Positions 1,322-58,015 of a DNA stretch of 64,000 bases are shown here, one piece after another. This stretch comes from a virus. Made by a program: the position numbers and the translations under genes. The DNA is taken from the IMG/VR virus record IMGVR_UViG_3300032331_002637, positions 55,757 to 119,756 of that record; one strand, written 5' to 3'. Every line of letters starts with the position of its first letter. Position 1 is the first letter of the stretch. The notes below the pieces were generated by a model. The model worked only from the letters and a program-made list of their open reading frames with translations, did no database searches and had not been told where the DNA came from.

Positions 1322-4300
1322 ATGTCAAACACAAAAAATTCATTCTCTTCTTTAATAGCTCAATTTTTAAGGCTTCAAAAGAATTCTTTAGAAATCATAA
1401 ATAAATTGAATGATGTTGCGACATCATCTAAAGATTCTGTTCAAATTGAATTTTTGATGGACGATAACACTTCAGAGAATATTCAAATACCTTCTTATGG
1501 ATTTTTAAAATCTGAGATTAATAGAATTGATAAAAATGTATTAGCACTTTCTGGGTTAGAAGACACTACAGCAAATATTAGAAAATCTGATGGCACTGTT
1601 TCTAAAATATATCAGGCTAATATATTAAAGGATCCTTTATCACCAGGAAGTCTTCAAGTACCTGGTACATTTCAAGCTAGAAATAATTGGTTTTTTGAAT
1701 CATTTTTAAATCCTCTTCTTTATGTTTCTATTGATGTAGAGAATCAGATCCCAGTAAATTCTGAAAATGTTTACGTAAAAAGAATTATAGCTAACACTCA
1801 AACTGATGTGCAAAAAGCATATTTCGATGCTAATTTAAAAGGAAGAAATGATATTACTGATTCTGATTTTATTGATTCATTAAAAAGCCAGGGAATTCAA
1901 TATTTTACTGATGAGCAAATAAATGAATTAGAATTAAGAACAATAAGATATATTGGATCTTTTGGAGTACTTAGAATTTATGACGAAGAAACTCAGGTAA
2001 CAGAAAATGGTATCACATCAACTAATACTGTTAGAAAATATAAGTTAACCACATTAAGATATACAGATACTTTAGCAACATCAACAGATTCTAGAACCCT
2101 AACAAAAGGTGACACTTTAATGACATCTGGAGGAACTAAATATGAAATAACATCAATTGATACCACTAATCAAACAGTATCTTTAAAAAGATTATTTGGA
2201 TTTGAAGCAATAAAAATAGGGGATAATTCTCTTACTATTTATTCTAATGTTTTATCGGATAGAATGGTAGATGTTAATGTGGGATTTGATGAAAGACAAG
2301 CTATTTTTATTAAATCTATCGACGGTGATTTTAATGTTGCATCTAGTAAATATAGTCCTGGTGTTTGTTTCTTATCTAATGAATTACAAATAAACACATC
2401 TGATGGGGTTAAGACATTATCTGAATTCTATTCTTCACAAGTTTCGGATTTTAGTAAGATATTTATTTCTTCTGCTAAGGAGAATGTTATTCCTGCAGTT
2501 TACGGACAAACACCTTCTGCTCCTATAGTTTCCCCTGGAAACTTTAAGGTAGTTAAAGTGAATTCACAGATAACAGATTCTAAAGAAAATGTAGATTTTA
2601 AAGATAAAATTAAAATTAAAACCTCTTTAAAAAATGAAATAGGATCAATAGATAGAGCAATATCACAGACAAGAAAACAGCTTTCTGAGCTAACTACAAC
2701 TTCTAAAGGGAAAACACCTACTGCTGAATACAAGAAATTAAACGATAAGATCACTTCATTAGGCAAAGATAAACAAATCAGAACAGATTTATTAGCTACT
2801 ACAATTACCGAAGTTAATAATCTAACTATTGCAGCACCTGAATTAACGGAGGCTCCTAAATATAGAGTCAGAGGATTTTGGCCTATACCTGAGCCAATTA
2901 TTGATTCTAAAACGGGAGAACAGAATATTGTTCAATTTAATGTGAGATACAGATACCTTTCATTAACAGGAAATTCTAATGGTACAACTCAGATTGATTA
3001 TGTAGACAATAATGGGGTACAAAAGACTGGACAATTTACAAATTGGACACAGTTTACAAGCGATTTAAGAAAGAAAGTATATGATTCTAATACTGGAACA
3101 TATGTTTGGCAAATTGAAGATGTTAGTGATGCTAATACGGTAAATATAAATCAATTAGATATTGCTATAACCAAAGGAGAAAAGGTTGAAATACAAGTTC
3201 AATCTATATCTGAAGCTGGTTGGCCCACTAATCCTTTGACTTCTGATTGGTCAACTTCTGCTATAGTGGAATTCCCTGCTAATTTGGTTGTGTCAATAGA
3301 CAACGGTGCTTTTATAGCACAAAATAGTATGGATCAGGCTGTAGTTAAAGTACAGGAGGATTTACAAGCTAAAGGATTAGACCAACATTTATCTACACAG
3401 TTTACATCTGGTGATAAATTTTATGCTCATAATTCATCTGCTATTGCATCAGGATTCTTTGATGGAGCAGGAAAAGCATTAGATTTATTTCAGAAGTTAA
3501 CTCAAATTGACAATGAATTACAATCATTAAGAGCATTAGTAGCTAAAGCAAAAGGCACTTTAGGTGTTTATATAAGAAGCGGTGGTACCTCTAATAAGAT
3601 TAATCCTGGTAGTACAGTTAATTTATTTGCTGGATATTATGATCAATTAATAGATCTTTCAAATCCAGGTAATAAAGGTAAAATAGCAACTGTGATTTAT
3701 TACCTAGAATTAAGAAACGAAGCTGCTACACCTTTAGAGCTTTCTTCTTTAATACCAGGAGGACAAGGTGTTAAAGCACCTATCACAATAAGCGGACAGA
3801 ACGATTATAACAATAACAGAAAATACGGAGAAACGCCAATTCAATTATCGGGTATTAACTCTGCTAATGTTGATGTTACTACACCAGGAGCATTTATACA
3901 AGCATCAGGATATCAAAGTGGTAATGCCTATTCACAATTTGTTTACACTAGGTATAAGAGTGTGGGATTAGGCGAGAATCTTTATTTTATTCCACCTACG
4001 GGTTTAATATGGAGTAGTACTCAAGGTACTGCTGATGGCACATCACAATTACCTATAAATAATGATGGTATACTTATGCCTTTTGAGCAACCAGGAGCTC
4101 CTGGAGGAGCTGGTGCTAATGCTAATATTTGGAGCGGAACTTATACTTCAGCTTTACCTGATGGAAATGGTAGTCTAAATGAATTTTGTGTACATATATC
4201 GCATCCTGATATAAATGATGGATCTTCCAATTCTTTTTCTAATTTAGAAAGACCATTAGTAACTGGATCTGGAACTATGGCTTATCCTGCATTCAGACAT

Positions 4301-10480: not shown

Positions 10481-13264
10481 ATGCCGCAGATTAACATATT
10501 AAACATTTTACAGGGAGACAATCAATCAACAATAGTTGATAAGATTAATTATAACTATGACCAAATACTTAGTGCTGGTGGTGGTCCACAAGGACAACAA
10601 GGACTCATAGGTCCTACTGGATCAGTTGGTCCCCAAGGCCCTCAGGGCGTTCAAGGGGTACAAGGTCCTTCAGGAACTAAATGGTTTGTTCAAGATAGCG
10701 CTCCAGCTATTAGTAATATAACAGGATCTAATCCATGGACATTTCCCACATTAGGAGATTATTGGTTAGATCCAGATTCAGCAAATCAAGAAGTTTATGT
10801 ACTCTCTGCTACTGGATGGGTTGATACAGGATATGGATTAAATGCCGGGGAGTTATTTCAAAAAGTTACACCAATTGATATAGTTGGTGGAGCTACTGGT
10901 TCTGGTATATTAATATCAGGAACTGGAACTAGCGGTGCTACTGCTACTACATTGGTACTTTCTGATGCTTCAATTAATGATTATACACCAGGTGGATCAG
11001 CAATATATAATGTTAATTATGAAGGAGCTAAGTTAAAAATAGCTACTAGAAATGATAGACTTAAGATATTAAGTTTTGGTAGGGCTGATCTTGATATCAC
11101 AGCAGGAGCAGGTGCTACTGGATACCTAAAAAATCCTTCATTAGAATGGGCTACATCAAGCCCCGTAGCTCCTAATTTTTATGATATCTCTTTAATAAAC
11201 CCAGGAGGAGCTATAGTTATAAATTCTTCAGCTACTGCAGCTTCAGGAGGAGTAAATATTTTTGCTAAGGGCGAAATAACAGCAACGAGTAGCGAGGATA
11301 ACATAATGATAAAAACTGCAATACCAAATAAAGGCACCTTTATTAGTGCAGCTTCTAATGGTGGATTTCTAGAATTATCAAATCAATCATCGGGAATTCC
11401 TAGCAATAATACCAATGCTCCTTTATTTGCTAATTCAACAGGATTAGGTATCGGTTTAGGTACAGGTCAATTTAAACAATCAGGAGACGATTCAAGAAGA
11501 TTAGGGGTATTTGGAAATACTAGTATATCTAAAACTCTTTCACTACATACTGGAGTTTTATTTACGGGTAATGCTTTATCTCCTCTAAATAACAATAAAG
11601 GTGTATTATTTGTAGAGGGACACAGTATGTTCGGGCACACAAATCCTACCGGGGATAATTCAGGAGGAATACAAACAACTGGCCCAGCGGAAGCGCAAGG
11701 AAAATATCCTCAATTATTTATTACATCCCCTAACTACGGTCCAGGAATACAAATAAAAACCAAAGGCATCAATTACTCACCTAGAACAATAATTGGGGAT
11801 GGGATTTTTGATGGATCAGGAACTGGTCCTAGTATAACTCAAGAATTTTTTGCAGGAACTGGATATACCTTTTATCCTAACGGGCCTTTAATAAGCTACA
11901 CACATAAGATATCTAATATTGCAAATTCTGGAGCATCTGGTCCAGTTTTCTCTATTACAACTTTCACAAATGCGGGTAATTATAGTTATCCAGACTCTGC
12001 TTATAGAACTCTTATAGAGACTAAAAATTCTAATAAAAGATTAGAATTAATGGCTAATAGTTATTGGGGGGAAAACAGTATTATTATGGGAGTATCGGGT
12101 TCATCTCTTTTAACCATACGTGGTCAATCAGGTGCTACTTCGGGTGGTGTTTCTATTGGGGTCAATTCAAATGTAACTACATCTTTATCTCCTTTAACAG
12201 GATCAAATTTTAATAGTTTTGGTGTTATTACTACACCTAACAGAAATAATCATAGTTTATATGTTACAGGGGTTCAGACTATAGGAACAGATAATCCTAA
12301 ATCGTTGTTTAATCATCTCGGTATAAATCAAGGTAATCCTGTTGGAGGGAATTCTTTGCTTAAAATATCTAGAAATTTATATACAGCAACGACTTCGCCA
12401 CCTAAAGGTAAAGGAAGTATTGCAGGTGGATACTCTATCAATAATTATCCTAACGGTATAGAGATAACATCTTATCATCCAACTACATCATCTACACTTC
12501 CAGGAACACCTAATGACTCAGTTGCTATAGCAGTTGGAGCAGTAGATTTCTTAGATGGTGGAGCTGCAGGAAATGCGCCAGCAACTGGATTCTTTGTTAG
12601 TAATACTGGGCAAAATATAGCTGTTGGACAGTCTATAGATTATACTGCTGCTATAGGAGTTTCCGGAGCTGGTACAGATTATGCTATTAAAGCAAAAGGA
12701 AATGTTGGGGTAACAGGAAATGTTGAGGTAATAGGAAATGCTGGAGTGACTGGTAATCTTAATGTTTCAAATGATATAATAGGAGGAAACGATCTTACTG
12801 TTACAAATGATGTAATTATTGGACCAAGTACAGGATCTTTAACATTAAATGGAAGTAGTAAGATAAAGAAAATTTCTTCTGGACACATATTTTTCTATTT
12901 TAATGCAAGTATTTCGGAGGACCCTATAGTATATTATCCTGCATCTCCTACTGATCCTGATAATAAATCTCTCCCAGCAGGATTTACTATTAATGCTAGT
13001 GCAGGTTCATCGCTAAGCAATGCAGCTGCTGTAGTGATTGATCACCCAGCACAGAATCCTATTAAAACGTCGGTACAGGTAACGGGTAGATATGGTGATA
13101 ATGGCTACATTATGGCATTAGGGACTTTATTTTCAGCTCAGGCATTGGCCACTAATACCAATATTTACATGAGAGCCATGGTATCACCTGCGGGAGGAAC
13201 ATTTTGGGGAACCAATCAAAACGTTAAGCTAGGATTTAATTTTACTATTATAGAATACTATTAA
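10481..13264 (+). CDS. Tail fibre or appendage protein with collagen-like segment
   Basis: The 927-residue protein begins with a short N-terminal domain. Residues about 34-66 follow a Gly-X-Y collagen-like triplet run (GPQGQQG, GPTGSVGPQGPQG). The long remainder is Gly/Ser/Thr-rich with beta-helix-like spacing. A short repetitive patch near residues 735-770 alternates GNVGVTGN-type units, and the protein ends in a compact hydrophobic C-terminal domain. Collagen-like triplets in phages typically form trimeric fibre shafts. A 42-base gap precedes the start and contains GATATATAT. It is probably a virion fibre; receptor binding is an inference. Confidence 0.6.
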   Translation: MPQINILNILQGDNQSTIVDKINYNYDQILSAGGGPQGQQGLIGPTGSVGPQGPQGVQGVQGPSGTKWFVQDSAPAISNITGSNPWTFPTLGDYWLDPDSANQEVYVLSATGWVDTGYGLNAGELFQKVTPIDIVGGATGSGILISGTGTSGATATTLVLSDASINDYTPGGSAIYNVNYEGAKLKIATRNDRLKILSFGRADLDITAGAGATGYLKNPSLEWATSSPVAPNFYDISLINPGGAIVINSSATAASGGVNIFAKGEITATSSEDNIMIKTAIPNKGTFISAASNGGFLELSNQSSGIPSNNTNAPLFANSTGLGIGLGTGQFKQSGDDSRRLGVFGNTSISKTLSLHTGVLFTGNALSPLNNNKGVLFVEGHSMFGHTNPTGDNSGGIQTTGPAEAQGKYPQLFITSPNYGPGIQIKTKGINYSPRTIIGDGIFDGSGTGPSITQEFFAGTGYTFYPNGPLISYTHKISNIANSGASGPVFSITTFTNAGNYSYPDSAYRTLIETKNSNKRLELMANSYWGENSIIMGVSGSSLLTIRGQSGATSGGVSIGVNSNVTTSLSPLTGSNFNSFGVITTPNRNNHSLYVTGVQTIGTDNPKSLFNHLGINQGNPVGGNSLLKISRNLYTATTSPPKGKGSIAGGYSINNYPNGIEITSYHPTTSSTLPGTPNDSVAIAVGAVDFLDGGAAGNAPATGFFVSNTGQNIAVGQSIDYTAAIGVSGAGTDYAIKAKGNVGVTGNVEVIGNAGVTGNLNVSNDIIGGNDLTVTNDVIIGPSTGSLTLNGSSKIKKISSGHIFFYFNASISEDPIVYYPASPTDPDNKSLPAGFTINASAGSSLSNAAAVVIDHPAQNPIKTSVQVTGRYGDNGYIMALGTLFSAQALATNTNIYMRAMVSPAGGTFWGTNQNVKLGFNFTIIEYY

Positions 13265-24634: not shown

Positions 24635-26668
24635 ATGTCTGGAATAAAATATTTAGCCGATATCTACGAAAAAAAAGGAAAGGATTTTATAGAAAAACTT
24701 TTCAGCCAGGAACTTAGTGTTACTGAGAATCTTGACGGATCATCTTTTTCTTTCGAAAAAGATTTTACTGGGGACAATATTTCTTTTTATAAAAAAGATC
24801 AGGAAAATCCTATAACTAAAGTTGATAGGATATTAATGAGATACTACGATAAGCCTATAAATTATATAGATTCCCTTCCGGAGTCAGTAAAAGCTGAGAT
24901 ACCAAAAGGATGGAGATTTGGTATGGCTTATTTTCCTAATACAAAGCCAGTAAGAATTGAATATGAAAGACTTCCAAAAAATCATTTAATTCTAACACAT
25001 ATTCTTGTAAGGGACGAATTTGGCGAAACCACAAGAACTATACAGGAGAAAGACGAACTAGATGAATGGGCAGATAAGCTCGGAGTAGAAAAAGCACCTA
25101 TTATTTTCCAAGGAAAATTAAACGACGATCAGAAAATGTCTATTATGGATTTTTTATCAACTCCATTAATGGATTTAAAAACACGTTTCAAGACTGAAAG
25201 TTTTTCTAAGTATCTAATATCTTTATTAAATCCAGAAATAATTAAGACCACTTTAGGTAAGGATTTACAAGGAGAGATAGACTCCTTGGTTTTTAGATTC
25301 GAGGAAGATGGTAAGGAAGATGTTGTTTTAGCTAAAATGGTTGATCCAGTTTTTTATGAAATAACAAGAGATAGAAAAGTTACAAGGTCTTCTTACTTCC
25401 CTAGCGACATTTATTCTCTTTGTCTAATAGATATTATGAATTTCATATTAGAAAGAGGTGTAGAGAGCTTTAGCGCAGAAGGAACTGAGCCTGAGGAGAG
25501 GTATATTAATTTTGTATTCTCCGTTTTTAAAACTTTTTCGTACGAAGAGGGAGAAAGATATATTGGTGCAGACTTTGATAAACCTGAGTATCTTAAATCT
25601 GAAAACTTTGACATTAATAAGGAACTAATAGTCGATAAAGATGTTGTTGAGTATTTAGATAAAGATGAAGTTTATTGTGATATCCTCCAAATGGTATTAA
25701 ATTCATTTAGAAAATTCAAAAGAAAACCTCATGGATTTTTCACTGAGGGTCTAATAGAACAATTCAATCTTCTTGTTGAAGAGATAGCTGATTATATAAA
25801 TGCTAAAAGAAAAGATAGGATAGAAGAATCTTTAGGAGTTCCCACATTTGTTTGGTTTAAAAAAACAGGAAGTAGATTTAAAATCACTGACGATGAATCT
25901 TTAGAAGATGAAATAGATTTAGATTCTATTATAGAAAATACAGTATTTAATGAGTCTGATCTATTATCCGAATCATTAAATGATATCAATGAAAAAGATG
26001 ACGAATCTATTGAAGAATTAAAAAAATCCGAAGATGACGCATCTGAGTTCTTTTCATTTAAAGATTTTAAAAAAGTGGTATCAACTCATAAAGAGAAAAA
26101 GAAAACAAAAATATTAAACGAGGAAAACCAAAAAGTTAATTTAATAATTGGTAAATTCCAGCCATTTAATAACGGACACCTTAAAATGTGTACAAGACTT
26201 AAAAAAGAAAATGACCTCCCCGTTTTTCTTTGTGTAGTTCATCCAGGAGGAGAAACTTCATCTAAAAAATACCCTTTTTCCGAAGAGGCTATTAAGAAGT
26301 CTATAGGATCTTTAACAGCAGAAAATGATAAATTATTTGCTGGTTATAAAATAGTTCCTACTGATCTTTTAGAAGATGCTATTAAATCTATTGCAGAGAA
26401 TGTAAATCCTATATCAGTTTGTATAGGAGAGAAAGACTTCGAGAATATGGTTTTACAAAGAGACTGGGTTAGAAATAAATACGATCTTAATGGAAATGAT
26501 ATTGAAATATTTAAAACTCCATATTGGTCTAATAATGAAGAGATAAGATCGTATATACAAAATACAGATTTCCAGAAATTCAAAAATAAAGTACCTAAAT
26601 CTATTGCTGTTCTTTTTAATGAGTTTGTAAAGGAAATTCAAGAATCTTCTAATGGAGATAATATATAA
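24635..26668 (+). CDS. Ligase-like domain fused to NMN adenylyltransferase-like domain
   Basis: The 677-residue protein has two halves. Residues about 1-270 resemble the covalent nucleotidyltransferase (RNA ligase) fold: SVTENLDGSSFSF recalls ligase motif I (E-K-x-D-G) and SLVFRF plus VLAKMVDP recall later motifs. The catalytic Lys is Asn (N32), so adenylylation by the classic route is unlikely. Residues about 498-677 carry IGKFQPFNNGHLKM (the HxGH family motif, with N in the first His position), GEKDFENMV and a late EEIRSYI, as in NadM-type NMN adenylyltransferases. The acidic linker (about 400-495) contains FSFKDF and ILNE near the junction. A NAD-salvage role is inferred. Confidence 0.6.
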   Translation: MSGIKYLADIYEKKGKDFIEKLFSQELSVTENLDGSSFSFEKDFTGDNISFYKKDQENPITKVDRILMRYYDKPINYIDSLPESVKAEIPKGWRFGMAYFPNTKPVRIEYERLPKNHLILTHILVRDEFGETTRTIQEKDELDEWADKLGVEKAPIIFQGKLNDDQKMSIMDFLSTPLMDLKTRFKTESFSKYLISLLNPEIIKTTLGKDLQGEIDSLVFRFEEDGKEDVVLAKMVDPVFYEITRDRKVTRSSYFPSDIYSLCLIDIMNFILERGVESFSAEGTEPEERYINFVFSVFKTFSYEEGERYIGADFDKPEYLKSENFDINKELIVDKDVVEYLDKDEVYCDILQMVLNSFRKFKRKPHGFFTEGLIEQFNLLVEEIADYINAKRKDRIEESLGVPTFVWFKKTGSRFKITDDESLEDEIDLDSIIENTVFNESDLLSESLNDINEKDDESIEELKKSEDDASEFFSFKDFKKVVSTHKEKKKTKILNEENQKVNLIIGKFQPFNNGHLKMCTRLKKENDLPVFLCVVHPGGETSSKKYPFSEEAIKKSIGSLTAENDKLFAGYKIVPTDLLEDAIKSIAENVNPISVCIGEKDFENMVLQRDWVRNKYDLNGNDIEIFKTPYWSNNEEIRSYIQNTDFQKFKNKVPKSIAVLFNEFVKEIQESSNGDNI

Positions 26669-26677: not shown

Positions 26678-27514
26678 ATGAAGAAGATATTAAGCTTTAA
26701 AGATTTTTCACTATACGAATATCAAAAATTTGACAACTCACTATACAATAAAATTAACGAAGCTACATTTATGGACGAGGTGGAGAAAAGAAAATATGAT
26801 CCAGTAGCTTTCAAAAAAATGAGAGCTGCAGTTTTCTTTCTAAACGCACAATATCCTTTCTTTGGAGGTCTTTTGTCTAGATTAATCATTAGAGAAAATA
26901 GAGGTATAAAAACAATGTGTACTGATGGAGTAAGTATTCACTACAATCCAGGATTTGTACATGAACATACTGATGATGAAATAATGTGGGTAATAGCACA
27001 CGAGGTTTTACATTGTGCTTTATTACATTTCCTAAGAATGCCAGGAAAGGATTCTAAAACAGTAAGTATATGGAATTATGCTACAGATTATGCTTTAAAT
27101 CAGATGCTTACCCCTGTGGATGAATCTGATCCTAGTAATCCTAAGCCTAGCGAAAAAAGAGGAGACTCTATAGGTAAAATGCCAAAGGGTGCATTATATC
27201 CTGGATGTGGAAGAGTTCCTTATGATAAAGAATTTGCTGGATTATCTGCTGATAGCATTTATAAGATTTTAATTAAAAATGGATTTCAACCAGATCCTGA
27301 AGATTCGCAAACTGTTAATCCTCCACCACCACCGCCACCACCAGCTCCGCCAAAGATACCTATAGTGGGAGATATTATATTCGACCCAGCTAGTGGTAAC
27401 TATGGAGTGGTAAATAGTGTAGATGAAGATAATGATTCAGTGGATTATGATCCTATACCAAAATCTAAGGTTCCTGAATATATTAGAAAAAAATACGAGC
27501 AAGACAATTTATAA
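26678..27514 (+). CDS. DUF2201-type metallopeptidase-like protein (module A), capsid-targeted
   Basis: The 278-residue protein has a conserved zinc-type motif HEVLHCALLH (H108, E109, H112, H117), typical of the N-terminal domain of DUF2201 VWA-associated proteins. TMCTDGVSIHYNP precedes it. A Pro-rich linker (about 213-226) leads to an SH3-like end (VGDIIF...YGVVNSV). The start MKKILSFKDF is targeting-like, with a plausible cut at KINE|A (E28). The VWA partner follows 9 bases later. In bacteria this domain and VWA are usually one polypeptide, so here it appears split. Peptidase activity is unproved. Confidence 0.7.
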   Translation: MKKILSFKDFSLYEYQKFDNSLYNKINEATFMDEVEKRKYDPVAFKKMRAAVFFLNAQYPFFGGLLSRLIIRENRGIKTMCTDGVSIHYNPGFVHEHTDDEIMWVIAHEVLHCALLHFLRMPGKDSKTVSIWNYATDYALNQMLTPVDESDPSNPKPSEKRGDSIGKMPKGALYPGCGRVPYDKEFAGLSADSIYKILIKNGFQPDPEDSQTVNPPPPPPPPAPPKIPIVGDIIFDPASGNYGVVNSVDEDNDSVDYDPIPKSKVPEYIRKKYEQDNL

Positions 27515-27523
27515 AATCGTAAT

Positions 27524-28507
27524 ATGAAAACAACAATAACTGGAATAAGAATCCAAGAAATGGATCCACCTGCAGGAACGGGAGGAACAGGACCAACCCC
27601 GCCACCGCCACCTGTTGGCGATCCCGAAAACGTTGATAAATGGAAAGAAGATGAGGATGAGAAAAAAAGGGATAAAGACGGAAAACCAGAAGAAAGCGAT
27701 GAAGATGACACTTTCGAAAGAGGCAAAACTGGAGGGGGAGGAACTTCTAATGTTGGAGGAGTATTACCAACAGGATCTCTAGGTGATCTTGGTGGAGATG
27801 ATGGATTAAATGGTGAAACATTAGGAGAAGAATGGGAGACATCATTAAAAAGATCAGAAAATGCTGGAAATGTACCTGCTTCTGTTAAAAGAGCATTAGA
27901 TAAATTAAAAAGACCTGTTATTGATTGGAAATCTGAACTTGAGAAATATATTGATGAGGCAGTAACAAAAACTAAATATAAATTACCTTCTAGAAGATTT
28001 ATCGGAGGCGGTGATGCTCAATACGGATATAAAAGATATAAAGAGGACTTTGAGAACTTAGTGATTGCTATAGACACATCAGGATCTATAACTAGACCTA
28101 TGATTGAGCAATTTCTTTCAGAGACAATGAAAATTACGGAGGATTACTCTCCACAAAAAACAGTAATACTTTATTGTGATACCCAAGTTTATGCCCCAGA
28201 CATTTTAGAGCCAGGAGATACCCCAGATTTTAATAAGATTGCTGGAGGTGGAGGAACTAATTTTTGGCCTCCTTTTAAATGGGTGGAAAAAAACATACTT
28301 GACGTGGGTGAAACCCCAACGGTATTTATATACTTCACTGATGGATTTGCAGAATTTCCTAAATCATCCGAATACGGAATAGATGGTTATGATGATAGAT
28401 GTATTTGGGTATTCTTATCTTTTAATGGAGAGCCTTTTGGAAACGATCAACCTTTTGGTGAAAGAATAGATATCACACTGGCAAATAAAGAAGTGGAAAC
28501 TATATAA
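27524..28507 (+). CDS. VWA-domain protein (module A, DUF2201 C-terminal type)
   Basis: The 327-residue protein begins with a disordered Gly/Pro and acidic/Lys region (about 1-100), with no targeting peptide. The VWA core (about 175-327) carries the metal-ion-dependent adhesion site: D184-T-S-G-S188, a Thr in GGGGT (245) and D273 in YFTDG. A VIDWKSELEKYID helix precedes it. It likely binds the MoxR ATPase encoded 38 bases downstream and the HExxH protein just upstream. MoxR-VWA pairs act as assembly or remodelling chaperones in bacteria; the phage target is unknown. Confidence 0.75.
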   Translation: MKTTITGIRIQEMDPPAGTGGTGPTPPPPPVGDPENVDKWKEDEDEKKRDKDGKPEESDEDDTFERGKTGGGGTSNVGGVLPTGSLGDLGGDDGLNGETLGEEWETSLKRSENAGNVPASVKRALDKLKRPVIDWKSELEKYIDEAVTKTKYKLPSRRFIGGGDAQYGYKRYKEDFENLVIAIDTSGSITRPMIEQFLSETMKITEDYSPQKTVILYCDTQVYAPDILEPGDTPDFNKIAGGGGTNFWPPFKWVEKNILDVGETPTVFIYFTDGFAEFPKSSEYGIDGYDDRCIWVFLSFNGEPFGNDQPFGERIDITLANKEVETI

Positions 28508-28512
28508 AAATA

Positions 28513-28521
28513 GATATATAA
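28513..28521 (+). promoter_or_regulatory. GATATATAA motif, candidate late promoter/initiation element
   Basis: GATATATAA sits 24 bases before the MoxR A start, followed by A-rich sequence. A weak purine run (TAAGG) also lies immediately before its ATG at 28546. Confidence 0.4.
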
Positions 28522-28545
28522 GAAATAAAATAAGAAATATTAAGG

Positions 28546-30135
28546 ATGAAAAAAATCTATAACTTTAAAGAATTCGTAAATGAATCTTACAATGTAGACG
28601 AAGGGGTATTATCTAATATCGGTAGCAAGATTTCACAATGGGCTAAACAGCTTATGACCGCAGTAAGAAATGGCATTATTAGAATGATCTCATCTGGTCC
28701 TAAAAAGGGATTACCTGCTTATGTGTTATTTAATTCAGATGAAGGATCTATCTCAGATCAAGTTGAAAAATTCTATCGCGGAACACCTTATTATGATATG
28801 AACAATATCAATAATCCTTCCGTAGCAAACGAGGCAGTGATTCCTTTGGAATGGGATAGAGCTGATGATGTACCTAATTCACTTCCCGAAGAAATAGAAT
28901 CAGATATTAGAAGAAGTCTTAAAGCTTGTTTATCCATTGCAGATCAAATGGATGCCACAACTGATATGGACGAAAAAGCAAGATTACAAAGGGAATTAAG
29001 AAAAGTTAAACCATATTTTATTTATGGAGCACCTGGTATTGGTAAAACACAAATCATAGCTAAAATATGCGATGAGCTTGGGTTAAACCTATTGAATTGC
29101 GATGGATTAAGTGCAGAACCAGTAGACTTTGCTGGTGTACCTAAAGTGGTAGATATTGAAGCTCCATCAGCAGAAAATCCATTAGGTAGGGGAGTTACAA
29201 GATCTAACGTGAGTGCGGATATTTTACCATATGATAACGGAAAAGGAGGAAAAGGTGGTATCTTATTTATTGATGAATTCAACCGTATGCCTGTTGAAGT
29301 ACAAAAGATATTCTTATTATTAGCTCAGCAAAGAAGACTTGGTGTTAATTATGACATGCCTAATAGATGGTATATCGTAGCAGCAGGAAATAGAAAAGTT
29401 GATGACCCTAAGGGTGGTATTGTTGAAATGGGATCTGCATTACAGGATAGATTTGAGATCGTAAATCTTGTTACTAATCCAGCATCAATGAGAAAATATG
29501 TAGAGACTACTCCTGGATTATCCGAGATATTCCTACCAGAACTTCTTGATTTCTTAGATTTTGATGCTAGCTGGTTCCATATGAACGATACAGATGCTAG
29601 GAAATTAAAATACCCTACTCCTAGAGCTTGGGAAGATGCTTCTAGAGCAGTTAGAAGAGTTCTTCAAGAGTATGAACAAAAAGGTATATCTGAAGTGCCT
29701 CATAGCGTATTAGCAAGAGAATTTCAGAAGAACGTAGGTAGAGATGCTGCTGTAATGTTCTTAGATTTCTATAAGATAGCTCAGCAGATCCCAGTTAAAG
29801 AATTATCGCTTCCTTTTACTGATCCTGATAGAGCTCCTATTCCTAGTGAATACCAAGGAAAAACTAAAAAATCAGGTACTACTAATAGAACTGATTATGA
29901 GCACGCTTTATTCACTGCTGTAATTAGAAAAAGCACGGAATTACCAAAATTAACAAGCACTGAGTCTTGTAACTTTTCAAAATGGTTAAGAAGAGTTAAT
30001 GCACCAGAGATGGGAGCAATGGCAATCACATCATTCTTCCAAAAACATCCTCATTTATTAGAAGATTATGCAACTATGGAATGTTTAGGACCATTAGCTG
30101 ATCAATGGGGAGCAGAAATTGGAGTTCAATTTTAA
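28546..30135 (+). CDS. MoxR-type AAA+ ATPase (module A), capsid-targeted
   Basis: The 529-residue protein starts MKKIYNFKEFVNESYN, with a predicted cut after E13. A pre-AAA domain with SGPKKGLPAYVLF follows. The AAA+ core has Walker A GAPGIGKT (161-168), Walker B ILFIDE (239-244), sensor-1 VAAGN and an arginine-finger-type DRF. The family remodels proteins by ATP-driven hexamers, with VWA proteins as adaptors. It shares the N-terminal domain and core with the paralogue at 54619. A 10-bp stem inverted repeat lies just after its stop. Packaging in the head is inferred from the N terminus. Confidence 0.8.
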   Translation: MKKIYNFKEFVNESYNVDEGVLSNIGSKISQWAKQLMTAVRNGIIRMISSGPKKGLPAYVLFNSDEGSISDQVEKFYRGTPYYDMNNINNPSVANEAVIPLEWDRADDVPNSLPEEIESDIRRSLKACLSIADQMDATTDMDEKARLQRELRKVKPYFIYGAPGIGKTQIIAKICDELGLNLLNCDGLSAEPVDFAGVPKVVDIEAPSAENPLGRGVTRSNVSADILPYDNGKGGKGGILFIDEFNRMPVEVQKIFLLLAQQRRLGVNYDMPNRWYIVAAGNRKVDDPKGGIVEMGSALQDRFEIVNLVTNPASMRKYVETTPGLSEIFLPELLDFLDFDASWFHMNDTDARKLKYPTPRAWEDASRAVRRVLQEYEQKGISEVPHSVLAREFQKNVGRDAAVMFLDFYKIAQQIPVKELSLPFTDPDRAPIPSEYQGKTKKSGTTNRTDYEHALFTAVIRKSTELPKLTSTESCNFSKWLRRVNAPEMGAMAITSFFQKHPHLLEDYATMECLGPLADQWGAEIGVQF

Positions 30136-30415: not shown

Positions 30416-30424
30416 GATATATAG
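30416..30424 (+). promoter_or_regulatory. GATATATAG motif
   Basis: GATATATAG ends 4 bases before the ATG at 30428. A promoter here would give an almost leaderless message, so a translation-initiation role is also possible. Confidence 0.35.
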
Positions 30425-30427
30425 AAT

Positions 30428-30961
30428 ATGAAACACATTAAATTATTTGAAAATTTCTTAAATGAAGATGGATACGGAAGAGACTTCTTTGTAAAAAAGA
30501 AAGACGGTAAACTTTCTCAATATTTTTTTAAGATTGAGGGAGAAGAGGAGGATCTAGGATTTGTAATAAATCTTGGTAAACTATCTAGAAATATCACCAT
30601 AGAATCTGCAGAGAATAGTTATGCTGTTCTTTCCGTAGAGCCTATCAGAGAATCTGTGATGGATGATTTTTTAGTGAAAGATTCGGATTTTAAATCAAGA
30701 GAAGATGATCAATTCACATTGACTAAATCTGAATATATGAGATTCTATAAGATTGTTGGTGAATGTATAAAAGATTACTTACAATCTAATCCTAAGGTTT
30801 CTATTATTTATGATGAGGTACCTTTAAATCTTGATATGGATTTTGAAGAGTATTCAGATAAAGTTAAATCTCTTATGGATGAATGGAGCTACGGTAAATG
30901 GAGCTCACAAGAGGGAGCAACAAAGAAAACATTAATTTATTCTAGAAGAGACCATGATTAA
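30428..30961 (+). CDS. Unknown protein with capsid targeting-like N terminus
   Basis: The 177-residue protein starts MKHIKLFENFLNEDG, with a predicted cut after E13. The body alternates strands and charged helices, with acidic patches (EGEEEDLG) and aromatic spacing, and no enzyme motif. The last 8 bases overlap the next gene. It sits in a run of small targeted proteins after MoxR A. A head-packaged role is inferred from the start alone. Confidence 0.55.
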   Translation: MKHIKLFENFLNEDGYGRDFFVKKKDGKLSQYFFKIEGEEEDLGFVINLGKLSRNITIESAENSYAVLSVEPIRESVMDDFLVKDSDFKSREDDQFTLTKSEYMRFYKIVGECIKDYLQSNPKVSIIYDEVPLNLDMDFEEYSDKVKSLMDEWSYGKWSSQEGATKKTLIYSRRDHD

Positions 30962-31271
30962 TAATATTCTTTCATATGATGAATTTATATTAGAATCTAG
31001 GATACCTATAGCTTGGGCTAAGCCTTCAGTAACAACTACTAAGGTACTTTCATTCATAGGAGAGAAAGAAAAAGTAACCAAGAAAGAACTATTAGAATTC
31101 TTAGATAGTATACCAGAAGATGCTTCAGGTAAGAAACCCAGTATGTCTTGGGTTAGAAATCAGAAGAAATATATCAAGTATAAAATACAAGAAGAAGATG
31201 CTAACCACTTTGAATTGACCGCTTTAGGCAAGAGAGTTTTAAAATCTTTCAGGATTAATGAAACAAAATGA
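30954..31271 (+). CDS. Small protein, targeting-like start, winged-helix-like
   Basis: The 105-residue protein starts MINNILSYDEFILESR, close to the targeting pattern (possible cut after E14). The rest (about 25-100) has a helix-rich shape with KVTKKELLEFL, a WVRNQKKYIKYKI recognition-like segment and a final FELTALGKRVL. This resembles a winged helix, so DNA binding is possible. It overlaps the preceding gene by 8 bases. I cannot assign a family with confidence. Confidence 0.5.
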   Translation: MINNILSYDEFILESRIPIAWAKPSVTTTKVLSFIGEKEKVTKKELLEFLDSIPEDASGKKPSMSWVRNQKKYIKYKIQEEDANHFELTALGKRVLKSFRINETK

Positions 31272-41631: not shown

Positions 41632-42279
41632 ATGAATAGAACTAAGAAGCTTAGCAATTTTAAAGAATTCGTAAGAGAATACGGAGACATAGATGGGAAA
41701 GAAGATTCTAAAAAAACCCCATGTATAATTTTAGCAGGACCTCCGGGATGTGGTAAGGGAACACAAGCTAGAATTATAGCCAAAGGTATGAGATGGAAAC
41801 ACATTTCAACTGGGGATATATTAAGGGATTCTGATAATAAAGAGATCAAGAAGTTAATGAAAACTGGTAATCTTCTTCCTGATGAGATTGTAGGTAAAGA
41901 GCTTATAGATTATCTTAAAAAATTAACTAAACATAGCGATCCTAAGGGATATATTTTTGACGGATATCCTAGAAATCTTCAACAGAAGTCTATATTTGAC
42001 GAGATTTGTAGAATTAATAATATCTCATTAGAATATGTTTTCTTTTTAAATGTCGCAGAGAAGATATTAAGGGAAAGAATAAAAGAAAGAAGTAAATCTT
42101 CTGGTAGATCTGATGATAAAAACGAGGAAGCATTCCAAATTAGAATGGATGAATATAATGAACAGACGTTACCTATGATAGAATCTATGAGAAACGGAGG
42201 AGGCTTTTTGGAAATATCAGGAGAAAATAAATTAGATGATATTACTAAGCTGATATTTAATAAAATTAATGAAATTTAA
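41632..42279 (+). CDS. adk: Adenylate kinase with capsid targeting-like N terminus
   Basis: The preferred start is the ATG at 41632, just after nrdA, and not the upstream in-frame codon that overlaps nrdA. The protein begins MNRTKKLSNFKEFVREYG, with a possible cut after E15. The P-loop is GPPGCGKGT (36-44). ISTGDILR, FDGYPRN and a LID-region RSDDKNE follow, as in adenylate kinases (AMP + ATP to 2 ADP). At 215 residues it is close to the bacterial enzyme. A nucleotide kinase with a targeting peptide is unusual and suggests it may be carried in the virion. Confidence 0.85.
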   Translation: MNRTKKLSNFKEFVREYGDIDGKEDSKKTPCIILAGPPGCGKGTQARIIAKGMRWKHISTGDILRDSDNKEIKKLMKTGNLLPDEIVGKELIDYLKKLTKHSDPKGYIFDGYPRNLQQKSIFDEICRINNISLEYVFFLNVAEKILRERIKERSKSSGRSDDKNEEAFQIRMDEYNEQTLPMIESMRNGGGFLEISGENKLDDITKLIFNKINEI

Positions 42280-54589: not shown

Positions 54590-54599
54590 GGATATATAA
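54590..54599 (+). promoter_or_regulatory. GGATATATAA motif, candidate late promoter/initiation element
   Basis: GGATATATAA follows a T-run and lies 19 bases before the MoxR B start. It is identical to the copies at 22800-22809 and 31743-31752. Confidence 0.4.
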
Positions 54600-54618: not shown

Positions 54619-56118
54619 ATGAAAAATAGTAGAATAAAAAACTTCAATGATTTTGTTAATGAATCTTACAATCCGGAGCTTAACGAAGGTTTCTTTTCCA
54701 GTATAGCTAATCTTATAAAAAAAGTTGGTGGCTGGGCAGGAGAAATGATCAAAGCAATAGGACAGGGTTTAATTAAACCAATACCTTCTGGACCAATGAA
54801 AGGTATGCCTGTAGCAATGTTATTCTTACCTGAAAATGGGCCTATCTATCAGCAAATGTTGAAATATCAGCAAGGGATTAATCCTATAATGGAAGCAAGA
54901 ATACCTTTAGAATACACAGGTGAAGACCAGAGTGTTAGAAACATTTCAGCTGAGCAATTAAAGAATGACGTAGTTAAATTATATAGGAGTAAAGACAGAG
55001 GGGGAAGAGCTAAACCCATCTTTATTTATGGAGCACCTGGTATTGGTAAGACTGAAATAGTCGGACAAGCAGCAGATGAGCTTGGTGTACCTGTTATGAA
55101 GTTGGATCTTCAATTTATGAATCCGGAAGATTTCTTAGGAATACCTAGTAGACATGATATAACTCCTGTTGAGGTCGAAGACGGTAAAGTTACTAATTTT
55201 GGTAAAGGATTCACTAGAGCAAATCCCCCTGCATTATTACCACCAGATAATGGTAAAGATAATAGAGGTGGTATCATATTTATGGATGAGATGAACAGAG
55301 CTAATAAAGCAGTTCTAAACTCTATCATGCAATTCGTACAAAAAGGAGAAGTTGGGCCTTACAAATTACCAGACAAATGGGTTATTGTTGCAGCGGGTAA
55401 CAGACCAGAAGAAGCGGAAGGTGTAGCAGATTTTGACTTTGCACTTGCTGACCGTTTCACTATTAAGAACTATGTTCCTACAATTGAAGGATATGCTTCA
55501 TGGGCAGATAAGAACGAAAAAATTCTGCCTGAACTTGTAACATTCTTAACATTTAATCAGGAGTATTTCCACAATTTAGATTCGGATAAAAAATCATTAA
55601 ACTACCCAACACCTAGATCCTGGACAGATGGAGCTTTAATTCTTCATGATGAGATAACAGATCAAAGAGTTAATACTTGGAGAGATATACCTAGAGAAGA
55701 AATTCTTAACATTTTCTATGATCAAGTTGGGCCTCAAGCAGCTGGTAAATTTGTTGCTTATCTTGATATACTTAGAAAAGTTAGTGATACAGAGATGGAT
55801 AATATGATTAACAATCCTGCATCTGCTAAGATGGTTGCTGAAGCACAAGCACCAGGAGGTAAAAGTATCCTTTATGGGCTTATTGAAATGGTGATGAAAA
55901 GAGTAGATTCTTATTCTCCGCAAAGTCTTTATAATGTAATGGAGTACTTTAATAGATATAACGAATTAGAACCTCTTAGCTGGCTGTATAAAGATATTCT
56001 AGTAAGATACCCAGATTTTAGATTTGGAGGTTCATCATCTACACCAGAAGATGAATTAAAACACAAAGCAGCTTTACTAGTAACTGGAGGAGCTAAAAGT
56101 AAAGGACTTCAACAATGA
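54619..56118 (+). CDS. MoxR-type AAA+ ATPase (module B), capsid-targeted
   Basis: The 499-residue protein starts MKNSRIKNFNDFVNESYN, with a predicted cut after E15. It shares the pre-AAA segment SGPMKGMPVAMLF with the module A ATPase. Walker A is GAPGIGKT (138-145), Walker B IIFMDE (219-224) and sensor-1 VAAGN, with ADRF later. After the predicted cut, the mature proteins of A and B both begin SYN. Module order here is MoxR, HExxH protein, VWA. It overlaps the next gene as ATGA. Confidence 0.8.
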   Translation: MKNSRIKNFNDFVNESYNPELNEGFFSSIANLIKKVGGWAGEMIKAIGQGLIKPIPSGPMKGMPVAMLFLPENGPIYQQMLKYQQGINPIMEARIPLEYTGEDQSVRNISAEQLKNDVVKLYRSKDRGGRAKPIFIYGAPGIGKTEIVGQAADELGVPVMKLDLQFMNPEDFLGIPSRHDITPVEVEDGKVTNFGKGFTRANPPALLPPDNGKDNRGGIIFMDEMNRANKAVLNSIMQFVQKGEVGPYKLPDKWVIVAAGNRPEEAEGVADFDFALADRFTIKNYVPTIEGYASWADKNEKILPELVTFLTFNQEYFHNLDSDKKSLNYPTPRSWTDGALILHDEITDQRVNTWRDIPREEILNIFYDQVGPQAAGKFVAYLDILRKVSDTEMDNMINNPASAKMVAEAQAPGGKSILYGLIEMVMKRVDSYSPQSLYNVMEYFNRYNELEPLSWLYKDILVRYPDFRFGGSSSTPEDELKHKAALLVTGGAKSKGLQQ

Positions 56119-57068
56119 TAAGAAAATTAAACGAGAATAAATATAAAACTGGCAAGATAATTACTAGTTTTTCTAATTATGTAAGGTTTATAAATGAATC
56201 CTATTCTTTTGATCCTGAAGAGGTTAATAGGAAAATTAAAAGAGTAATTCTATGGATAAACATCAATCAAGGATTCTACGGTGAATTACTAAGCCACGTA
56301 AATATATTCGGATCATCTAATATTGATCCTAAGACTATGTGCACAAACGGTAGGGATATTATATTCCATCCCGAATTTGTAATGAATCAGACAGAAGCAG
56401 CATTAAGGTTTGTTCTATGTCACGAAATTCTTCATTGTATAGGAGATCATGGTAAAAGAAGAGAAAATAGGAATCCCCAAGGATGGAATATAGCTTGCGA
56501 TTATGCTATAAATCCTCTACTCCAGGGAGAGACAGGATTCGAATGGCCAGTATCAGAGGACGGATCTAGAGCAGGTTTATATGATGCTAGATTTGAAGGA
56601 ATGAGAGCGGAAGATATTTATCAACAATTAGAAGATGAAGGTGCTCTTAATAAACTTATTAATGATCCTAATGTTAAAAAACAAACAGATACTGGTAGGG
56701 TAGAAGACGAGGATAAAGAACAACCAGAGCCTGACTCTGATCTGGTTATACAAGAAGGTGATTTCCCTCAAGAGGATGAACCTGGAGATGAACCTGGTGA
56801 TGAGCCCGGAGATGAACCTGGTGATGAACCCGGAGAACCTGGTGATGAACCTGGAGAACCTGGTGATGAACCTGGAGAACCTGGTGATGAGCCTGGAGAA
56901 CCTGGTGACGAGCCTGGAGAACCTGGTGACGAGCCTGGAGAACCTGGTGACGAGCCTGGAGATAATAAAAAACAATTACCTAGAGTTGGACAGAAAGTTA
57001 TAACAAAAGAAGGAAAAGAAGGAACTATAACCAAAGTTTACCCTAACGGGGATATAGAAATTAGTTAA
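56115..57068 (+). CDS. DUF2201-type metallopeptidase-like protein (module B), capsid-targeted
   Basis: The 317-residue protein has a displaced targeting peptide, SFSNYVRFINESYS, with a possible cut after E28. HEILHCIGDH (H103, E104, H107, H112) matches the module A protein, as does TMCTNGRDIIFHPEF. Residues about 221-283 are a PGDE repeat. An SH3-like end (VGQKVITKEGKEGTITKV) follows, as in module A but with a different linker. The ATG overlaps the MoxR stop. The HExxH suggests a zinc peptidase, but activity is unproved. Confidence 0.7.
   Translation: MIRKLNENKYKTGKIITSFSNYVRFINESYSFDPEEVNRKIKRVILWININQGFYGELLSHVNIFGSSNIDPKTMCTNGRDIIFHPEFVMNQTEAALRFVLCHEILHCIGDHGKRRENRNPQGWNIACDYAINPLLQGETGFEWPVSEDGSRAGLYDARFEGMRAEDIYQQLEDEGALNKLINDPNVKKQTDTGRVEDEDKEQPEPDSDLVIQEGDFPQEDEPGDEPGDEPGDEPGDEPGEPGDEPGEPGDEPGEPGDEPGEPGDEPGEPGDEPGEPGDEPGDNKKQLPRVGQKVITKEGKEGTITKVYPNGDIEIS
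56775..56963 (+). repeat. Tandem repeat coding for Asp-Glu-Pro-Gly units
   Basis: Units of GATGAACCTGGA/GAACCTGGT type repeat through about 63 codons, encoding DEPG and DEPGEPG. Other frames are also open here and are artefacts. The equivalent linker in module A is Pro-rich, so the linker evolves fast. Confidence 0.85.
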
Positions 57069-57073
57069 ATTAT

Positions 57074-58015
57074 ATGTTAATTAAAGACGGTGATTATTCA
57101 GTAATATCTGATAATAAGGAGAAGGGTAAGGAAGGTAATCCATCAAATCCAAATGGGCCTAGTAATCCTGGTGATCCTGATTTTGATGATAGTCCTAAAA
57201 AGATGGATGATATACCCCAAGTTGGGCAAGAAGCTCCTGGAGTAAAAACATTTAGGGATTTTGATACAACTGGTTCTTCTACACAAAAAGCAAAAGAGGT
57301 AAAAGCAGATAAGCCAAGTAAGATATTTAAAGGAGATTTAAAGACACCAAATTGGGCTGATATATCTAATCAGGCTTTAAGTAGATCTAAGCTATCTGAC
57401 AAAGCTAAAAGACTGGTAAGGGCTTTAAAAACTAGTGAACCTCTAGTTGATTGGAAAAAAGAATTAAAGAAATTCTTTGATAATACATTCAAATCTAGCG
57501 AATGGGTTTTACCTAATAAAAGATTCCTTGCTGGCGGTGATATGATATACGGTCGTAAAGAAACTGGAGAAGACACTTTAAAAACAATTGTTGCTGCTGT
57601 AGATACTTCAGGTTCGATTTCGAAAGAACAGGTTAAAGCATTTGTTAATGAGATAATGTATCTATGTAAAACATTTGATGCTGACAAGACTATAATTATA
57701 TACTGTAGTGATGATATTGATAATGTTGATATAGTTAAAAAAGGGGGTCAGCCAGATCTCACTAAAATAGCTTCTACTGGGGGTAATGATAAAGGATTTA
57801 TTCCGCCATTCCAATGGGTCGAGAAGAATAAAATAAAGCCATCAATATTTATTTACCTAACAGATACAGGAGGAGAAATGCCAGATCCTTATAAATATGG
57901 AATAAGTAAATATAGAAAGAAAGTATTATGGTTTATATGCTCTCCAGAAATGTACAATCCTCCTTCATTTGGAAAAATACTTTTTGCACCAGTTGGTTCT
58001 ATAAGACCTAAATAA
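57074..58015 (+). CDS. VWA-domain protein (module B)
   Basis: The 313-residue protein has a disordered Asn/Pro/Asp-rich start (about 1-60) and no targeting peptide. The LVDWKKELKKFFD helix matches module A. The adhesion site is D177-T-S-G-S181, and D264 lies in YLTDTGG. The predicted MIDAS Thr (in ASTGGN) is less clear than in module A. It is the last gene of the module, 5 bases after the HExxH protein. The same gene split as in module A suggests both descend from one ancestral arrangement. Confidence 0.75.
   Translation: MLIKDGDYSVISDNKEKGKEGNPSNPNGPSNPGDPDFDDSPKKMDDIPQVGQEAPGVKTFRDFDTTGSSTQKAKEVKADKPSKIFKGDLKTPNWADISNQALSRSKLSDKAKRLVRALKTSEPLVDWKKELKKFFDNTFKSSEWVLPNKRFLAGGDMIYGRKETGEDTLKTIVAAVDTSGSISKEQVKAFVNEIMYLCKTFDADKTIIIYCSDDIDNVDIVKKGGQPDLTKIASTGGNDKGFIPPFQWVEKNKIKPSIFIYLTDTGGEMPDPYKYGISKYRKKVLWFICSPEMYNPPSFGKILFAPVGSIRPK

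Follow-up and report, generated by a model that had tools for sequence, protein, structure and literature searches.

Where in an infection does a phage-encoded AAA+ ATPase act when it and a metallopeptidase encoded beside it both begin with a peptide resembling a signal for the phage head? The question is raised by module A, a trio of genes at 26678-30135 of the window (the whole stretch of DNA analysed here, 64,000 nucleotides, bases 55757-119756 of the 119,756-base viral record IMGVR_UViG_3300032331_002637, G000 below), which encodes an HExxH metallopeptidase, a VWA protein and a MoxR-like ATPase. A second trio, module B, spans 54619-58015 in the gene order MoxR, HExxH, VWA. The reading favoured here, at a probability of about 0.45, is that of an AAA+ machine which is expressed late, is destined for the phage head, is packaged there and is ejected into the new host. 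The sequence-only reading of the locus had described the trio and had placed a targeting peptide on its first and last gene products, with none on the VWA protein; the open reading frames (ORFs), Pfam and PHROGs matches and intact motifs bear out the former, and the sequences and tag scores agree with the latter, the HExxH A tag being by score the weaker of the two.

Domains and motifs of the module A proteins

All 63 window ORFs (ATG start, at least 60 aa, overlaps removed by length) lie on the + strand of an AT-rich genome (GC 0.326). Pfam recognizes DUF2201_N in HExxH A (E 9.2e-25, above the cut-off, profile 5-134 of 271) and, in VWA A, the VWA-like domain DUF2201 (E 3.2e-18) together with positions 143-257 of the DUF2201_N profile (E 1.2e-6). 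The PHROGs family phrog_1314 likewise covers both HExxH A (15-154) and VWA A (191-391 of 394); as the two proteins match separate parts of one family, the gene boundary falls inside what elsewhere is one protein. MoxR A matches AAA_5 (E 1.7e-6, above the cut-off) and phrog_1297, named 'ATPase' (E 9.5e-39). AAA_3 stays below its 27-bit cut-off in MoxR A (17.3) and in MoxR B (25.2), as does bpMoxR in MoxR B (25.4 of 27).

The zincin motif of HExxH A is formed by H108, E109 and H112, plus D137 in WNxAxDY. HExxH, the subsequent WNxAxDY and the MoxR motifs are invariant among six aligned sequences each; in a wider set of 18 HExxH proteins, H108, H112 and D137 are kept in 18/18 and E109 in 17/18, pVco-5 having I in that alignment. 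VWA A carries the MIDAS motifs DTSGS, which is of the form DxSxS, GGGGT and FTDG; the GGGGT loop is replaced by STGGN in VWA B. MoxR A contains Walker A GAPGIGKT, Walker B FIDE, AAGN, DRF and PTPR, and the AAA+ set of Walker A and B, sensor 1, arginine finger and sensor 2 is complete. The predicted models of MoxR and HExxH have pLDDT values of 63.5 and 63.8. Sequence searches against solved structures returned nothing at E <0.4 for HExxH, nothing for VWA and weak RuvB-type matches for MoxR. Among the matches listed for the HExxH model are small zincins, selecase for example (best Foldseek E 0.035, best Z 7.3), a likeness that may reflect only a common arrangement.

N-terminal tags

In both modules the MoxR and HExxH proteins start with a peptide that ends in [LIV]xE, and the VWA protein is without such a peptide. 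The module A tags are MKKILSFKDFSLYE on HExxH and MKKIYNFKEFVNES on MoxR, with none on VWA; HExxH A has an additional KINE-A site at residues 25-29. A tag profile (consensus IxxFxxF[ILV]NE[SAQ]) was derived from 19 different N-terminal tags of non-module genes. Scored against it, eight MoxR proteins from modules A and B of four phages reach 16.9-21.7 bits, each with a shuffle p of 0.0005; the highest score among 1197 internal windows, which served as a control, is 12.2 bits. The A-type HExxH proteins reach only 3.0-4.9 bits when scored without gaps (p 0.06-0.12). A gapped score, which admits one or two extra residues before the E and was devised after the ungapped HExxH result had been seen, gives 6.2-13.9 bits for seven split HExxH proteins (p 0.002-0.037) and -4.0 or less for all eight VWA proteins. 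In the related fragment G005, where the HExxH start is an assumed TTG, the 8.1 bits stem from LVERDSFIFED at residue 23 and not from the FKDFLVE stretch. None of the fused HExxH-VWA proteins of ten other phages scores above 2.5 bits; the rows labelled 'MoxR' for V2275, PA5oct and pVco5 are neighbouring or truncated ORFs and were left out of all counts. As a regular expression, the tag matches 23 of 170 ORFs vs 25 of 2760 internal windows, the count including two genes entered twice through overlapping loci and a few evident chance matches.

Descent of the split protein and census of loci

HExxH and VWA are fused in 9/9 phage records fetched for comparison. Between HExxH A and VWA A stand a TAA stop and a new ATG, in the window and in four records 99% identical to it. 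Recoding or a sequencing slip was rejected as the cause of the split, since TAA is the commonest stop of the phage (42 of the 54 + strand ORFs of at least 100 aa) and is kept in all five near-identical records; a 612-aa 'open frame' across the split was an artefact of a search that reads through stops. The split into two proteins is probably secondary, the VWA protein representing the C-terminal half of a once-fused protein. In LR756500 (L031) the two halves are still fused and the N-terminus, MKYIKSYENFIFEN, scores 21.0 bits; with a tag in this position, a later split would leave it on the HExxH half and the VWA half untagged. L180 is also still fused, with a MoxR of 11.0 bits and a fused protein whose start, MLIKFKRYQQIIKINE, scores -1.0 and is tag-like only by eye.

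The MoxR genes of both modules are present in the relatives G001-G004. Complete A and B trios are found in G001 and G002, a contig end interrupts module A in G003 and module B in G004, and the fragments G005 (123 kb) and G006 (124 kb) hold a single full module and a single module A, respectively. More widely, the VWA protein has matches in 288 of 50,697 phage records. Two profile scans, from which the best 80 loci each were taken (at least 160 in all), were combined with seven earlier loci and ten named phages; both halves were present in 155 of the entries, and removal of near-copies left 102 rows for a tree of HExxH + VWA sequences. In it, 18 split rows form one group (SH-aLRT 87), and the split rows L170 and L171 join the fused loci L031 and L180 (support 93). 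These belong to a 22-row group parted from 79 others by a modest branch (support 82, drawn open), with LR756501 unplaced. One further split row, L195, a locus of separate HExxH, VWA and MoxR genes with no scoring tags, stands elsewhere on a long branch; given this row, the split may have happened more than once.

Membership of the tagged group was taken from this tree, and a tag was counted at 8 bits or more. Among the 22 related loci, 20/22 MoxR proteins and 12/22 HExxH or fused proteins (15/22 at 6 bits or more) carry a tag, as do 0/20 VWA proteins; in the 70 other loci with sequence the figures are 0/66 for MoxR (2/66 at 6 bits or more) and 0/70 for HExxH or fused proteins, the loci being related and the counts therefore not independent events. 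Most low-scoring HExxH starts are tag-like by eye (e.g. LVKWKDYSKIYED, LVLEN, KAINES) and were left uncounted.

Capsid, protease and the T4 precedent

Searches for the S77 protease and the capsid protein (PF03420 and PF07068) give no match in G000 itself, which is probably a fragment, and the controls were silent. The 99% identical sister G006 encodes an S77 prohead protease domain (5.5e-11) in a 678-aa protein and, adjoining the protease gene, a Gp23-type capsid protein (4.4e-40). When the capsid proteins of six phages are aligned, an [LIM]xE[SN] column common to all follows the N-terminal arm, with the variants LNES (G006), LYEN, LMEN, ILES, IYES and MNEN; this column resembles the ending of the tag and would be the cleavage site. 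In Sphingomonas phage PAU, genes starting MKSLTKLYESKLNES and alike stand among the portal, protease and capsid genes, and the tags KLNES and KLNEA resemble AKLNES in the arm of the PAU capsid protein. The precedent for such signals is phage T4, in which a capsid targeting sequence (CTS) of about 10 residues is enough to steer foreign proteins to the core, gp21 is the protease that trims the internal proteins, and IPI is injected; IPI-III, gp68 and gpAlt are dispensable for assembly (PMC9958956).

A shared upstream element

Both MoxR genes are preceded by GATATATA (Table 1). The window holds 11 copies of the element, all on the + strand and none on the - strand; the number is unremarkable against shuffles (mean 8.6; 23 of 100 reach 11), but eight of the 11 sites lie 12-33 nt before a gene (10455, 22801, 28513, 30416, 43583, 46320, 49677 and 54591). 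The looser form GATATA[TA] is found 45 times on the + and 14 times on the - strand. It lies no more than 45 nt upstream of 13 of 27 tagged vs 13 of 148 untagged genes (Fisher 4.6e-6; some duplicates counted). Among these 13 untagged genes are that of the protease, the one following the capsid gene and a 927-aa gene at 10481. The same test in relatives gives 11/36 vs 20/215 (p 0.0013), and 9/34 when the two module MoxR genes are set aside (p 0.008). Across the 22 loci the looser form stands upstream of 17 MoxR genes (18 with the tag-bearing start of L092), of 8/20 HExxH genes and of 1/21 VWA genes; the control loci show 0/66 for MoxR and 0/69 for fused genes, a zero that tells little about timing since their phages may use other promoters, and shuffled upstream sequence shows 6.5%. 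GATATA[TA], with its stricter form GATATATA, may thus be a late promoter of this phage group, in which case the genes behind it would be expressed late.

A likely role of the tag, well supported by the sequence, is to target proteins to the head, as the sequence-only reading had proposed: its ending is an [LIV]xE site of the T4 protease kind, and a similar site is conserved in the capsid proteins of relatives; the sister phage encodes both an S77 protease and a capsid protein of the Gp23 type; in divergent loci it is again MoxR and HExxH that bear the tag; and the module and head genes have the candidate late-promoter element in common.

Ejection, assembly or another location

From the domains and motifs, the conservation of the tags, the similar site in the capsid protein and the shared upstream element, we infer late expression, prohead entry, cleavage and the piggybacking of the VWA protein. 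The N-terminal propeptides of MoxR and HExxH would bring both proteins into the prohead core, where the T4-type S77 prohead protease of the phage would remove them by a cut after [LIV]xE; the VWA protein, as the former C-terminal half of the fused protein, would most likely gain entry through contacts with its old partner and with the ATPase. The complex would then be packaged with the DNA and ejected, delivery into the host being plausible. In the new host it would use cellular ATP, engage a target via the VWA domain and remodel it by means of the MoxR ring, the target also being cut if the zinc site is active. A more specific form of this proposal is put forward tentatively: a virion-borne, ATP-dependent protease-chaperone, in which a MoxR ring, a metallopeptidase and a VWA adaptor are loaded by cleavable tags and ejected with the genome, could act at time zero on host or defence proteins before phage gene expression, with the paralogues A and B, which differ in their MIDAS loops, aimed at different targets.

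Several observations weigh against an ejected machine. In 10 of the 22 related loci the HExxH or fused protein scores below 8 bits, and the MoxR proteins of LR756500 (3.9 bits) and L100 (5.7) also fall under this cut. Cargo that survives in the prohead should be poor in protease sites once mature, and no such depletion is clearly seen: observed/expected values for [LIV]xE[SAGNQ] in the tagged group are 0.88 (MoxR), 1.24 (HExxH) and 0.77 (VWA), those at other loci are 1.42 (MoxR) and 0.97 (fused), and that of the other proteins of the window phage is 1.23. The nine cultured phages with the module that were examined are all untagged, and no virion proteomics was found for a tagged phage. In phage CBB, where MoxR (untagged, -1.6 bits) and its partner are CBB_216 and CBB_217, both are absent from the part of the virion mass spectrometry table that spans them (213, 214, 224; PMC5259590). 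The virion table of phAPEC6 (PMC7247149) lists a 'gp265c ATPase' of 49.52 kDa with six unique peptides. This phage is assigned to the species of 121Q, whose MoxR, an untagged relative starting MTTQNDILNVK, has a calculated mass of 49.51 kDa and lies five genes from the thymidylate synthase (six in phAPEC6 numbering), itself 35.51 kDa in both phages; judged by mass and neighbourhood, gp265c would be the MoxR homologue. The same table shows no protein of the partner's calculated 54.06 kDa, and it also lists RecA, SSB, topoisomerase and thymidylate synthase, so contamination is possible. Finally, the data fit ejection and a role in assembly alike.

Assembly is the main rival. The published proposal for untagged relatives is here moved inside the prohead: the same tags would supply the prohead core with an assembly factor that acts before packaging as a chaperone and protease on head or core proteins and is then degraded, expelled or left inert. 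Virion assembly with proteolytic processing was proposed by Iyer et al. for the fused pair, and a MoxR-vWA system needed for tail assembly is mentioned there for Acidianus two-tailed virus (PMC7824862); the candidate late element, present also at the protease gene and at the one that follows the capsid gene, would suit such a role as well. It is nevertheless the less likely use of a head tag, as the tag resembles the signal of the T4 internal protein cargo, which is dispensable (PMC9958956), the untagged module is common elsewhere, so that the module as such needs no head location, and duplication in four relatives with tags on unrelated neighbours suits cargo better. Given head targeting, an ejected effector or chaperone is somewhat more likely than an assembly factor, because T4 IPI-III and gpAlt are not essential for assembly (PMC9958956), because many phages do with untagged versions of the module, and because a syntenic, cargo-like set of tagged genes adjoins module A in G002-G004.

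Two further explanations are less likely. The tag could be a localisation or processing signal that leads elsewhere than to the head interior, e.g. to a membrane, replication or assembly site, the module being cytoplasmic as it presumably is in N4-type phages. This would accommodate the many tagged genes without an assigned function and the weak tag of an adenylate kinase, the position of untagged homologues close to genes of nucleotide metabolism (dCTP deaminase and thymidylate synthase among them), and the CBB table; it is improbable in view of the likeness of the tag ending to the conserved capsid protein site and the place of the PAU tagged genes among head genes. Chance N-terminal similarity in a random gene trio can be all but dismissed: in an AT-rich genome MK-I-F-F-E-like starts may be cheap, and the HExxH A tag alone has an ungapped p of 0.06, but the MoxR tag separates divergent related loci from controls at 8 bits (20/22 vs 0/66) and the trio recurs in both modules and in relatives.

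Pairs of MoxR and a metallopeptidase-VWA protein are widespread in phages and constitute a large orphan family, for which we know of no tested function. A lineage that has head-type tags on both partners, kept through a split and a duplication, and whose ATPase gene follows an element found also at head genes, points to the virion as the place to look. If the complex is in the virion, phages can inject an energy-driven protein-remodelling machine and not only passive enzymes; if it is only in proheads, it is a new helper of head maturation; either location would give the family a function.

Module B, neighbouring genes and further observations

Coordinates of the two modules, their tags and the elements and neighbours next to them are collected in Table 1. 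In MoxR B, the second LNE-G site after the tag leads into a stretch that looks amphipathic (GFFSSIANLIKK); other MoxR proteins also have NEG sites of this kind, as does a gene located after that of the capsid (L065 1831). HExxH B has an EPGD repeat linker, variable in length among relatives, which ends in a small sequence that is KOW/SH3-like by eye. Module A of G002 (L064) holds tandem VWA genes, at 2257-3240 and 3244-4251, one of them with the B-type loop STGGN. In G005 (L030, 7566-11304) there is a run of look-alike genes starting MKHIKEYRVFES and similar, which resembles an expanded internal head protein family.

The gene before module A (24635-26668) encodes a 677-aa protein with a weak cytidylyltransferase-like C-terminus (Pfam 0.0011, below the cut-off) and an N-terminus that carries ENLDGSS; its G004 homologue also has ENLDG. 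RNA ligases have K-x-DG at the corresponding position. The adenylate kinase encoded at 41632-42279 (Pfam ADK 2.1e-34) has a tag-like N-terminus, NFKEFVREY, of 8.8 bits and is possibly another head-aimed enzyme.

Table 1. Features of modules A and B and their surroundings in the window
Feature	Position	Strand	Description	Score or evidence
HExxH metallopeptidase A	26678-27514	+	278 aa, DUF2201_N N-terminal half	ORF, Pfam, PHROGs
HExxH A tag	26678-26719	+	MKKILSFKDFSLYE	10.1 bits gapped, p 0.007; 4.9 ungapped, p 0.06
VWA protein A	27524-28507	+	327 aa, rest of DUF2201_N and DUF2201 VWA, untagged, MIDAS intact	
Candidate late promoter element	28513-28520	+	GATATATA, 33 nt before MoxR A	
MoxR-like AAA+ ATPase A	28546-30135	+	529 aa	Pfam, PHROGs, motifs
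MoxR A tag	28546-28584	+	MKKIYNFKEFVNE	20.7 bits, shuffle p 0.0005
Tagged neighbour of module A	30428-30961	+	Tag MKHIKLFENFLNED; GATATATA at 30416	Adjoins module A also in G002-G004
Tagged neighbour of module A	30954-31271	+	Tag MINNILSYDEFILES	Adjoins module A also in G002-G004
Candidate late promoter element	54591-54598	+	GATATATA, 28 nt before MoxR B	
MoxR-like ATPase B	54619-56118	+	499 aa, tag MKNSRIKNFNDFVNE and second LNE-G site	
HExxH B	56115-57068	+	317 aa, tag end FSNYVRFINES	
VWA B	57074-58015	+	313 aa, untagged, second MIDAS loop STGGN	

Comparison with known systems

An AAA+ ring with a VWA partner is the arrangement of NorQ-NorD and RavA-ViaA, and the MoxR model matches NorQ (Foldseek E about 1e-5), with RuvB chains ranking above it in the same search (2.4e-6). 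To our knowledge, neither system has a metallopeptidase partner or a head tag. The MoxR-vWA ternary conflict systems share the MoxR-vWA core, which is rarely accompanied by a metallopeptidase domain there, and differ in being cellular and in having VMAP, iSTAND and similar third parts (PMC7159879). None of VMAP, iSTAND, FtsH or a beta-propeller was seen among the scanned neighbours of the modules, no search having been aimed at them.

The likeness to T4, in which IPII and IPIII carry the CTS and are processed by gp21, lies in a short N-terminal peptide ending in [LIV]xE and in the S77 protease and Gp23-type capsid protein of the sister phage. Unlike the T4 CTS, the tag described here has the consensus IxxFxxF[ILV]NE and occurs on many genes, including those of an AAA+ ATPase and a metallopeptidase.

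The closest relatives are the pair of MoxR and a fused metallopeptidase-vWA protein described by Iyer et al. (2021) as a chaperone and co-chaperone in group 2.2 jumbo phages (PMC7824862), the families phrog_1297 and phrog_1314, and gp24/gp25 of N4; they have the same two families in adjacent genes, with the same HExxH and D residues. The family phrog_1314 goes by 'HNH endonuclease' in PHROGs, and its members, such as N4 gp25 and the RefSeq entry of CBB_217, are often named 'HNH endonuclease' or 'homing endonuclease', apparently a misannotation. The pair itself has already been described in phages (PMC7824862), a point on which the sequence-only reading, supported as to head targeting, needs correction. 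A literature search over open-licence full texts found no tagged or packaged MoxR-VWA module in titles or the openings of abstracts. Unlike the published pair, the system described here has HExxH and VWA in separate genes, head-type tags on MoxR and HExxH, two copies in the phage and in G001-G004, and a candidate late element before the ATPase gene. As far as seen, the novelty lies in four features: two of the components are tagged, the HExxH-VWA protein is split, the module is duplicated and its copy B has an altered MIDAS loop, and an upstream element is shared.

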